A DNA stretch of 25,907 nt from a virus: IMG/VR virus record IMGVR_UViG_3300020371_000049, positions 1 through 25,907 of that record, one strand, 5' to 3'. Under the pieces are notes generated by a model, which worked only from the letters and a program-made list of their open reading frames with translations, searched no databases and was not told the origin of the DNA. The translations under genes were made by a program, and so were the position numbers. How positions within the stretch are numbered: the stretch's first letter is position 1; each line of letters starts with the position of its first letter. Positions 3 to 5,192 of this stretch are shown piece after piece.

Positions 3-401
3 CGAGATTATGAGTTTAAATTAGCGGCTAAGGCATCAGATAAAATGGTTGAATTAGGACTTGATCCAATCAACGTGCCTTGTCGGATCTCTGTAATGGC
101 ACAATTTGGTATTCCTAAATCATACTCTAAGAAGCGCAGAGACGACGCAGTACTAGGGAAAACTATCCCAACTAGGGTAGATGCTGACAATGTGTTAAAG
201 ATAGTTACAGACGCTTGTAATGGCGTCTTATACGAAGATGACCGACTAATATACAAAATGACAGTACAAAAAAGGTTTGGTGATCCTATGGTGATTGTTT
301 CTCTTGAATGGGACGTTAACACCAAATCTGACACAGTAAAGTATATTGATAAAGATAAGCTTATGCCTGAAGCCAAGGGTATGTGGAAAAACCTGATTTA
401 A
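3..401 (+). CDS. RusA-like Holliday junction resolvase (5' end outside window)
   Basis: RusA-family endonucleases cut Holliday junctions as dimers during phage recombination and replication. The sequence shows the family's acidic signature: a V-D-A-D-N segment around 178-192, then K-I-V-T-D-A-C-N-G and a Y-E-D-D segment near 229-243, matching the catalytic aspartates of RusA. The frame is open leftward past the ATG at 45 to the window edge, and the residues before that ATG look like coding sequence, so the gene probably starts upstream and the 118 residues from base 45 are only part of it. Its stop overlaps the start of the next gene in a TAATG junction, suggesting translational coupling. Family assignment is fairly secure; activity is inferred. 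Confidence 0.85.
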   Translation, partial: RDYEFKLAAKASDKMVELGLDPINVPCRISVMAQFGIPKSYSKKRRDDAVLGKTIPTRVDADNVLKIVTDACNGVLYEDDRLIYKMTVQKRFGDPMVIVSLEWDVNTKSDTVKYIDKDKLMPEAKGMWKNLI

Positions 402-1243
402 TGTTAGTACCGCGTAAAAAAAATGAAGACTTGAGAAACTATTCGGTTTTACCGTTTGACGCGGCAAGAGACACGCGTTTACATGGTACAGCCGCATTGA
501 GTGTTCTATGTGTGCTTTGTACTTATACAGATCAATTGGGTGTTACTTGGGTTTCACAAGGCAGAATAGCACGAGATATGGGTATCAGTAGAACGGCAGT
601 AACAAGACAAATAAAGAAGCTCATTGAATTTGGATATCTCGAGAAAGCAAAGAAGTTTAGCAAACATCAAAAGAGTGATAGTTTAAGAGTTGTATTTAAA
701 CGCGCTCCAAAAGACCTGAACGAAGCCAAAGCAAACTTAACAGCAGCTGAACAAATCAGGATTGAAGAACAGCGAGAACAGGCAAGAAATGAACAGCTGT
801 TCAATTATAATAAGACAAGAGAAAAACAAGGTCTCAAGCCTGTGGATAACTCAACCACCTGTTACATCCAGAGGTCACAGGTACCTGTCACATCTAGAGG
901 TAACACAAACGAGAACATTATACCGAATAATAATAATAATATATATAATGATGCTAGGCGGTTTTGTACTTTGTTTTTGAGGATATGTGAAAGTTACGGA
1001 ACACCACGACAAATTAATGAAAGAGACATTCAAACAGTCTCACAGTGGATAAAAGACGGTTTAACAATGGAGGAATGGTCAGGAATACTTAAAAACCATG
1101 CTGAATACTGCTACAAAAACAGACGAGATATAGCGCGAGCCATAGGATATTTTAAAATCCCAGTATCAAAAGCCCTCGGAAAGTCTAAGGATCACAGAGC
1201 CAACGACATATTAAAAGGAATAGTGAAGGGCAAAAGGTTATGA
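401..1243 (+). CDS. Winged-helix replication-initiator-like protein
   Basis: This is a 280-residue protein with a winged helix-turn-helix at residues 50-83 (S-Q-G-R-I-A-R-D-M-G-I-S-R-T-A-V), a charged linker at about 115-183 and a separate C-terminal helical domain at about 184-280. The linker ends in an asparagine run encoded by an AT-rich tract. N-terminal wHTH proteins of this layout occur among phage replication initiators (lambda O type) and among regulators. The gene carries an origin-like element in its linker (841-949), which favours the replication role. I chose the ATG at 401, which overlaps the resolvase stop; an in-frame GTG at 383 preceded by AAGGG at a very short spacing is the alternative. 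The wHTH is clear; the replication role is inferred. Confidence 0.75.
   Translation: MLVPRKKNEDLRNYSVLPFDAARDTRLHGTAALSVLCVLCTYTDQLGVTWVSQGRIARDMGISRTAVTRQIKKLIEFGYLEKAKKFSKHQKSDSLRVVFKRAPKDLNEAKANLTAAEQIRIEEQREQARNEQLFNYNKTREKQGLKPVDNSTTCYIQRSQVPVTSRGNTNENIIPNNNNNIYNDARRFCTLFLRICESYGTPRQINERDIQTVSQWIKDGLTMEEWSGILKNHAEYCYKNRRDIARAIGYFKIPVSKALGKSKDHRANDILKGIVKGKRL
841..949. other. Candidate replication origin inside the wHTH gene
   Basis: Three elements lie in order within 110 bases. Positions 841-849 read TTATCCACA on the minus strand, the consensus DnaA box. Positions 857-908 hold two abutting 26-bp dyads (see the repeat entry). Positions 926-949 are 24 consecutive A/T bases, a plausible unwinding element. 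A near-consensus DnaA box (8 of 9) in the same orientation lies at 1044-1052. In lambda the origin sits inside gene O, with inverted-repeat iterons followed by an AT-rich tract, and O binds them through an N-terminal wHTH; the layout here is the same. Function is inferred from arrangement only. Confidence 0.6.
857..908. repeat. Two tandem 26-bp dyad repeats (iteron or operator)
   Basis: The first 23 bases of the units, 857-879 and 883-905, match at 20 of 23 positions. Unit 1 is itself an inverted repeat: arms ACCTGTTAC (857-865) and GTCACAGGT (874-882) pair at 8 of 9 positions across the spacer ATCCAGAG. Unit 2 has the more degenerate arms ACCTGTCAC and GTAACACAA. The junction of the units makes a perfect 12-bp palindrome at 877-888. 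The 26-base period is not a multiple of three, so the copies encode unrelated peptides; the repeat is kept as nucleic acid, not protein, which points to a binding site. Confidence 0.75.
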
Positions 1244-2189: not shown

Positions 2190-2444
2190 ATGAAAAAAAT
2201 GTACAATGTAGTGCAGGGTCAGAAACGTAGAAACGATCCTGAGAAATCTGATTGGGTAAAGTTGGGTATAGCTTTTGAGGATAGTAAGGGTATGCGTATT
2301 AAGCTAAATGCGTTGCCTATTCCTAACCAAGAAGCAGAGATCTGGATAAGTTTGTTTCCGATGGACGATAAGGGTAAGTCGGGCGGTCAATCTTCTCCGC
2401 AAAATAACAGCTCTGATAATTTTGATGATGAGATACCATTTTAA
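2190..2444 (+). CDS. Small protein with SSB-like C-terminal tip
   Basis: An 84-residue protein with a compact strand-rich N-terminal region (about 1-60: Y-N-V-V-Q-G-Q, W-V-K-L-G-I-A-F-E-D, M-R-I-K-L-N-A-L-P) followed by a glycine/serine/asparagine-rich linker and an acidic end, D-N-F-D-D-E-I-P-F. That ending closely matches the C-terminal tip of bacterial SSB (E. coli ends M-D-F-D-D-D-I-P-F), which recruits replication and repair proteins. The body is much shorter than SSB, so it may be a minimal OB-fold-like single-strand binder, or a protein using the tip as a mimic. GGAAGGACGAG lies just before the ATG. The tip is directly visible; ssDNA binding is inferred. Confidence 0.7.
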   Translation: MKKMYNVVQGQKRRNDPEKSDWVKLGIAFEDSKGMRIKLNALPIPNQEAEIWISLFPMDDKGKSGGQSSPQNNSSDNFDDEIPF

Positions 2445-2863
2445 TGGCTAGAACGCGGCAAACTCCTATTGGTCGGTTTGGTGGTGTACGAGTTACACAG
2501 AAAAGGGTCAAAACGAGTGCCACGTTAGAAAGTAACAAAGAGGTTGTTGCCCAGGAGCTTATTGCCCTGGGTACGACTTCTATTACTGAGATTATGAATT
2601 TAGATGGCACAATGAAAGATCCGAAGGATATTCCGGACTATGCTCTCAGGGCTATCAAAAAAATAACACCTATGCCGGATGGTCGGGTAGCAATCGAGAT
2701 GCACGACAAGGTTTCGGTGCTGAGAGTGCTGGCAAAAGCAGCTGGTTGGCTCGATGCTCCGGATCAGGAAAGTGACAAGCCATCCATAGTAGGGATAAAC
2801 ATGAAAGGGCCGCAGACCACAGAGTATGCGGAGGTCATTGATGGACAAGACAGCAAGACTTGA
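2444..2863 (+). CDS. Terminase small subunit
   Basis: A 139-residue protein that I read as the DNA-recognition subunit of the packaging motor. After a basic N-terminus it has an alpha-helical region with E-L-I-A-L-G-T-T-S-I-T-E-I-M-N and a later segment D-K-V-S-V-L-R-V-L-A-K-A-A-G-W-L, a pattern shared with small terminase subunits that end their oligomerisation region with '..AL..L.KH.G..'. The position directly before the large subunit supports the call. The start overlaps the previous stop by one base (TAATG). The C-terminal 25 residues are polar and may contact the large subunit. The sequence family is diverse, so confidence rests partly on context. Confidence 0.75.
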   Translation: MARTRQTPIGRFGGVRVTQKRVKTSATLESNKEVVAQELIALGTTSITEIMNLDGTMKDPKDIPDYALRAIKKITPMPDGRVAIEMHDKVSVLRVLAKAAGWLDAPDQESDKPSIVGINMKGPQTTEYAEVIDGQDSKT

Positions 2864-4482: not shown

Positions 4483-4964
4483 TGGGTCTAATACAGCTTC
4501 CTACCTTTAAAATGAGGCCAGATGAACAAATCGTGCCGCTGCAATACAGCCATCTTCTCAGCATAGAGCTAGGGCCACATGAGTTAGAATATGCCGCAAG
4601 TATTCCTGGATATTTAGATTATGTTTGGGAAAATTCTGAACATGGATGGAGCTGGGCAGCGATTGGTCGAGGTAGAGTTGTTTGCGTGTTCGGTGTTCGA
4701 GATGTTTGGCCTGGTGTTGTGGAGGCATGGTTTATTCCAGGCGAAGGGCTAGAAAACCATGCAAGAACTACTTTGGTAGGCGCAAGAGCGCTTTTAGGTG
4801 AGGTTATAGGCAGATCCGGTATCAGAAGGATGCAAATTTTTGTAAAATCACAACATATGGTAGCATTAAGGTTTGCCAAAGCACTACATTTTGATGTAGA
4901 GTGCGAATTAAGGAAGTTTGGTCCAGAGGGGGCCGACTATTATTCAATGGTAAGGTTTGAGTAA
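4482..4964 (+). CDS. GNAT-like protein resembling T7 gp13
   Basis: A 160-residue protein with an acetyltransferase-like fold pattern: the segment W-S-W-A-A-I-G-R-G-R-V-V-C-V-F-G-V, a V-E-A-W-F-I-P strand, a helix with A-R-A-L-L-G-E-V-I, then R-M-Q-I-F-V and a terminal A-L-R-F-A-K-A-L-H-F-D-V-E-C-E-L-R-K-F-G-P-E-G. This end resembles the C-terminal motif of GNAT proteins and of the T7 gp13 family (internal virion protein A). The usual acetyl-CoA loop (Q/R-x-x-G-x-G/A) is not evident, so catalysis is doubtful. Here the gene follows the large terminase with a one-base overlap instead of lying in the internal-virion cluster. It may act in virion assembly. Confidence 0.65.
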   Translation: MGLIQLPTFKMRPDEQIVPLQYSHLLSIELGPHELEYAASIPGYLDYVWENSEHGWSWAAIGRGRVVCVFGVRDVWPGVVEAWFIPGEGLENHARTTLVGARALLGEVIGRSGIRRMQIFVKSQHMVALRFAKALHFDVECELRKFGPEGADYYSMVRFE

Positions 4965-5192
4965 ATGAGTGGTATTTTCGGAAAAAAGAAGAAGCCAGCG
5001 CCAGCGCCAACAAAAGCAGAAAAAACAATATCTCGACAAGAGCAAAGAGCTGAAGCTCAAGAGCAAACAGAAATGCAGGGCGCACAAAGACGCAGGAGAC
5101 TGCTTAGAACTGGCGGCATGAGGCTTTTATTTTCACCATTAAGACAGGAAGGCCCAGGAATAGACGAAGTTAAGAAAAAACTTGGCGGCTAA
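4965..5192 (+). CDS. Small basic conserved phage protein
   Basis: A 75-residue protein of unknown function. It begins M-S-G-I-F-G-K-K-K-K, has a proline/alanine stretch, an alanine/glutamine/glutamate helix (about 20-40), a basic R-R-R-R-L-L segment and the motif R-T-G-G-M-R-L-L-F-S-P-L-R followed by E-G-P-G. That last motif is one I have seen in short proteins encoded near terminase or portal genes of podoviruses, but it carries no assigned role that I know. The ATG directly follows the upstream stop. High charge and small size would suit a nucleic-acid or capsid-interior component; this is speculation from composition. Confidence 0.65.
   Translation: MSGIFGKKKKPAPAPTKAEKTISRQEQRAEAQEQTEMQGAQRRRRLLRTGGMRLLFSPLRQEGPGIDEVKKKLGG

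Follow-up and report, generated by a model that had tools for sequence, protein, structure and literature searches.

A probable DnaA-assisted replication origin embedded in the winged-helix initiator gene of a podophage

Positions 839-950 of the viral DNA analysed here very probably form an initiator-bound, DnaA-assisted theta origin, which lies inside the initiator gene of a marine podophage and recruits the host replisome. The stretch analysed (the window) is the whole IMG/VR record IMGVR_UViG_3300020371_000049, 25,907 bases in length, and is probably a fragment since its first gene is truncated at the contig edge. The parts of the element, their order, their conservation at the DNA level, the initiator-like family of the encoded protein and the absence of the replisome families searched for were observed directly. 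A first-pass annotation of the same DNA had placed a consensus DnaA box at 841-849, two 26-bp dyad repeats over 857-908 and a 24-base A/T-only run at 926-949, in this order. Recomputation reproduced all of these coordinates: the box is an exact match on the minus strand, the repeats were found as 20-bp dyads with a 26-bp period, and the run is the longest of its kind in the record. The gene and the embedded element comprise the following features:

401-1243, plus strand: wHTH replication initiator gene, 280 aa from ATG 401, with an alternative start at GTG 383
839-849: CCTGTGGATAA, which spans the DnaA box and is invariant across 17 homologous genes
841-849, minus strand: DnaA box TTATCCACA, the single exact match in the window
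857-882, no strand assigned: 26-bp repeat 1 (iteron 1), with the dyad TGTTAC-N8-GTCACA at 860-879
883-908, no strand assigned: 26-bp repeat 2 (iteron 2), with the dyad TGTCAC-N8-GTAACA at 886-905
926-949, plus strand: A/T-only run of 24 bp, candidate DNA unwinding element, the longest A/T-only run of the 25.9 kb
839-991, no strand assigned: synonymous-site constraint block that outlines the embedded DNA element

Inside the gene, the DnaA box is followed by the dyads and then by the A/T run. The direct repeats at 857-879 and 883-905 (23 nt, period 26 bp) are 87% identical and belong to a 26-bp repeat whose consensus is about TGTNACNNCYAGAGGTNACA. Each repeat contains one 20-bp dyad, TGTNAC-N8-GTNACA, and the array is present once in the window. 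The 40-bp stretch at 913-952 is the least stable of the window.

Codon resampling for the same protein yielded the DnaA box in 3.6% of draws, both dyads in 0.17% and the 24-nt A/T run in 3.0%, and all three parts together in 0 of 200,000 draws. Mere codon choice in a repetitive hydrophilic linker is thus an extremely unlikely origin of the element: poly-Asn codons are A/T-rich by nature and neither the box nor the A/T run is rare when taken singly, but the joint occurrence was never drawn, and the synonymous constraint found in both clades of homologues and between them contradicts a coincidence. The first-pass annotation had argued that the weight rests on co-location, and we agree, in that the single parts are modest evidence and their co-location and conservation carry the weight.

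An alignment of homologues had been set by the first-pass annotation as one of the tests that could refute the origin; run here, it did not do so. The 17 homologous genes fall into two clades, A and B, with 84-91% and 58-60% identity to the window protein, respectively. All 17 keep the box, the dyads and the A/T-rich tract, the one exception being L010, whose second dyad has one outer base changed. In L008 and L010, both of clade A, the A/T-only run is shorter, at 12-14 nt. Over 839-991, synonymous differences amount to 0.34 of expectation within clade A, 0.31 within clade B and 0.39 between the clades, as against about 1.15 over the remainder of the initiator gene. None of 5000 permutations gave a dip as low, a count that provides no exact probability because the permutations shuffle codon columns without modelling the tree. 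The lowest 20-codon synonymous ratio of the initiator gene is 0.07, at 839, versus 0.31-0.70 in neighbouring control genes from the same contigs. Synonymous sites are thus frozen where the parts lie and free elsewhere. The repeats are conserved as DNA and not merely as protein, as had been proposed: synonymous variation collapses over 839-991, and AGAGGT falls in different reading frames in the two repeat copies, given the 26-bp period. In four homologues (L004, L009, L012 and L013) a 12-bp in-frame insertion just after the DnaA box adds a second box-like sequence, TGTTGATAA, and an in-frame insertion of the same length at the same place gives the box-like TGTTAATAA in L005 and L006. A weaker dip in synonymous variation was also seen at 4809-4960 of the window, at the end of the gene that follows terL.

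Since GTNAC equals its reverse complement and occurs four times at 13-bp spacing, a reading of the array as four units of 13 bp is possible as well. Judged from the sequences, two dyads are favoured over four direct repeats, because conservation extends to the outer T in the first half-site and the outer A in the second, whereas the inner flanks vary. Clade B dyads match at the variable half-site base N, and most clade A dyads do not. The sequences are also compatible with a 46-nt hairpin formed across the dyads. We therefore considered whether the element, rather than being an origin, acts as an RNA or cruciform hairpin to regulate the gene or operon at the level of expression or translation. 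The outer arms are 100% paired in 11 of 11 sequences, with a switch from T-A to G-C between the clades, and RNA folding of the clade B member L025 gave z = -4.3. Such a hairpin is nevertheless very unlikely to be what the element is for: strong folding was confined to the clade B member tested, the other members having z between -1.2 and -2.8, one position of the inner arms is unpaired in 8 of 11 sequences, and the conserved DnaA box and A/T tract, which both lie outside the hairpin, would be left unexplained.

The product of the 401-1243 gene carries an HTH_36 winged helix (Pfam, E=2e-12). Its Phage_rep_O score of 14.1 bits lies below the Pfam cut-off of 28.7, and its likeness to lambda O is seen only through the O-like families of PHROG, where its matches are to replication initiation, O-like and DnaD-like families. 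No plasmid Rep family matched it in Pfam at E 0.1, which separates it from plasmid-type Rep proteins such as TrfA in RK2. A structure prediction made with 17 sequences had a mean pLDDT of 51.8, the wHTH region scoring best. Positions 827-934 code for residues 143-178, which have pLDDT below 50 and almost no secondary structure, and which this weak model predicts to be disordered. This would agree with an origin tucked into the linker, the model being too weak to rest on. A fold search of the model against the PDB gave no match at E below 0.001, the best matches, all above that value, being a DnaD model and mostly wHTH regulators. A search of about 85,000 bacterial and archaeal genomes turned up no relative of the protein.

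As wHTH regulators typically recognise inverted half-sites in pairs, the dyads could serve as an operator, bound by the wHTH protein or by another regulator to control transcription, a role that would also suit the regulators among the best fold-search matches. We consider this highly improbable: the dyads lie about 460 bp into the gene and their array is not repeated in the window, replication-protein families dominate the PHROG matches, and an operator would leave unaccounted for the DnaA box and, beside it, the least stable stretch of the window.

The window holds three further genes that bear on its context:

3-401, plus strand: RusA-like resolvase gene (PF05866, E=2.4e-16), its 5' end lost at the contig edge
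2190-2444, plus strand: small conserved gene (phrog_18187, unknown function) that matches the place of the annotated ssDNA-binding protein of phage MEP301, by position only
2444-2863, plus strand: terminase small subunit gene (PF03592, E=2e-5), at 25.6 bits just under the Pfam cut-off of 26.1

By terminase and portal, the nearest isolate to the window is Methylophilales phage MEP301 (66% and 60% identity, respectively). A 34,304-bp contig, L035, probably represents a complete genome of this phage group because its ends are identical over 55 bp. Its genes include those for an annealing protein of the Sak type, a Gam-like protein and a regulator resembling Arc. The ORF at 4549-4980, which precedes its initiator gene, looks by eye like the window RusA. 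Searches for family-A DNA polymerase, DnaB, IstB/DnaC (PF01695) and lambda P (PF06992) gave no match in the window, the L035 record and two further relatives, and no P or DnaC-like helicase loader of the kind that pairs with lambda O was found in these four records. The first-pass remark that no polymerase is in view thus holds for DNA_pol_A in the window and the relatives searched, on the basis of family-A polymerase searches together with the published MEP301 annotation (PMC8024684). This replication setting fits a host-dependent phage. The small terminase gene about 1.5 kb downstream might point to a packaging site (pac or cos), or the element might be an attachment site; almost certainly it is neither. 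No tyrosine integrase matched in the window or in the probably complete L035, the initiator gene has no relative in the bacterial and archaeal genome collection, and neither type of site would require a DnaA box and an A/T tract.

For the origin that we favour, we infer binding, melting, DnaA involvement, helicase recruitment and a replication start at the element, which would proceed as follows. The 839-950 region would act as a theta origin sited in the part of the initiator gene that encodes the disordered linker. The encoded protein would bind both TGTNAC-N8-GTNACA dyads through its N-terminal wHTH domain, probably as dimers, and the dyad-bound initiator would strain the adjoining A/T tract at 926-949 until it opens. 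Host DnaA at 841-849 would assist this opening and would probably help to bring host DnaB, given that the searches revealed neither a phage helicase nor a loader of the lambda P/DnaC type; the host replisome would then copy the phage genome.

We also searched for the DNA pattern beyond this gene family. A scan of 2.9 million viral contigs for the box together with the dyads returned 19 sites, all in this HTH_36 initiator gene family. The dyad array on its own returned 23 stretches, namely 19 in the initiator family, three within tandem repeats of 13 bp that belong to no recognisable gene, and a single one, in L041, that sits in a true Phage_rep_O gene (PF04492, E=4.6e-16). In this last gene (L041:1938-2780), GTTACC-N6-GGTAAC dyads encode VTPGG/VTAGG peptide repeats. 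The related GGTNAC pattern gave three matches in viral contigs: two HTH_36 genes, in L048 and L049, and an intergenic array in L047. The HTH_36 genes (L048 around 12246; L049 around 13506, minus strand) carry GGTGACA/TGTCACC arrays, and in one of the two, that of L048, an A/T tract encoding NNIYNDNNNNNI follows the dyads. The L047 array (around 3264) has GGTCACG dyads near CCTGTGGATAA and CCTGTGGACAA and is perhaps another origin. The GTNAC dyad code therefore occurs inside three unrelated replication-initiator-like genes that were found by DNA pattern alone, and may be an iteron code common to unrelated wHTH phage initiators. A search for GTNAC arrays in about 85,000 bacterial and archaeal genomes gave 44 stretches. 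Most of these are tandem repeats of 13 bp, and none was recognised as part of a replication gene; in bacterial genomes, the dyad array by itself is not specific. None of eight named phage O genes checked holds GTNAC dyads, and any iterons there therefore differ.

How the MPP-C cyanopodoviruses, another group of marine podoviruses without a DNA polymerase gene, replicate has been stated to be an open question (PMC9860041), and for MEP301, which has no polymerase, dependence on the host is all that was concluded (PMC8024684). Polymerase-less marine podophages now gain a concrete and testable initiator gene, a candidate binding site and a candidate unwinding tract, with strong comparative support, and the origin question for such phages reduces to a bench test on a short DNA fragment. 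Synonymous constraint inside the linker of a wHTH gene is, moreover, a method that could locate origins in other uncultured phages.

Among known systems, the origins of lambda and Stx phages resemble the window element in placing dyad-symmetric iterons, and an AT-rich tract after them, midway along the initiator gene (PMC7466680). The lambda origin occupies the middle part of gene O; its iterons are imperfect inverted repeats of 19 bp, and unwinding there requires at least two of them together with the AT region (PMC7466680). The first-pass annotation had called the window element lambda-like, and the architectural part of this reading stands: dyad-symmetric iterons lie in the linker-coding part of the initiator gene and the AT-rich tract adjoins them, as at ori-lambda (PMC7466680). 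It does not extend to the protein, an HTH_36 member below the Phage_rep_O cut-off, to a P/DnaC-like partner, or to the DnaA box beside the iterons, which is a feature of iteron plasmids such as RK2 (PMC4980987). Ori-lambda has four 19-bp iterons and Stx phages have six, and these phages have a P helicase loader (PMC7466680), whereas the window has two dyads on a 26-bp period and no loader was found here. Lambda O belongs to Pfam Phage_rep_O, and the likeness is judged on architecture, not on the letters of the lambda iterons. Pseudomonas phage MD8 likewise has repeats within an O-like gene and no DNA polymerase gene, but it is a lambdoid temperate phage with a P-like protein (PMC8508860).

MEP301 shares the lack of a DNA polymerase gene (PMC8024684). 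Its gp55 (L027 34057-34662, annotated as hypothetical) is 32% identical to the window initiator over 90 residues of the wHTH region, but the TGTNAC-N8-GTNACA dyad is absent from the entire MEP301 genome. We considered gp55 as a carrier of the element and rejected it, as it has neither the dyad pattern nor an iteron-like array nearby.

The RK2 oriV has DnaA boxes, iterons and an unwinding element in that order, and DnaA first takes the helicase complex to its boxes (PMC4980987). The window follows the same order of DnaA box, iterons and AT-rich element, with one box, two iterons and an HTH_36 initiator in place of the four boxes, five 17-bp iterons and TrfA of RK2; its element is embedded, whereas PMC4980987 does not describe oriV as lying inside the initiator gene. 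Nothing in the element is categorically new. We regard it as a variant, because embedding of the lambda type and order of the RK2 type combine here with no loader gene found. It is conceivable, though somewhat doubtful, that it works as a hybrid origin, in which the embedding is lambda-like, host DnaA takes the place of a phage loader by delivering DnaB through the conserved DnaA box, which stands in RK2 order, and the GTNAC dyad may be a shared iteron code.
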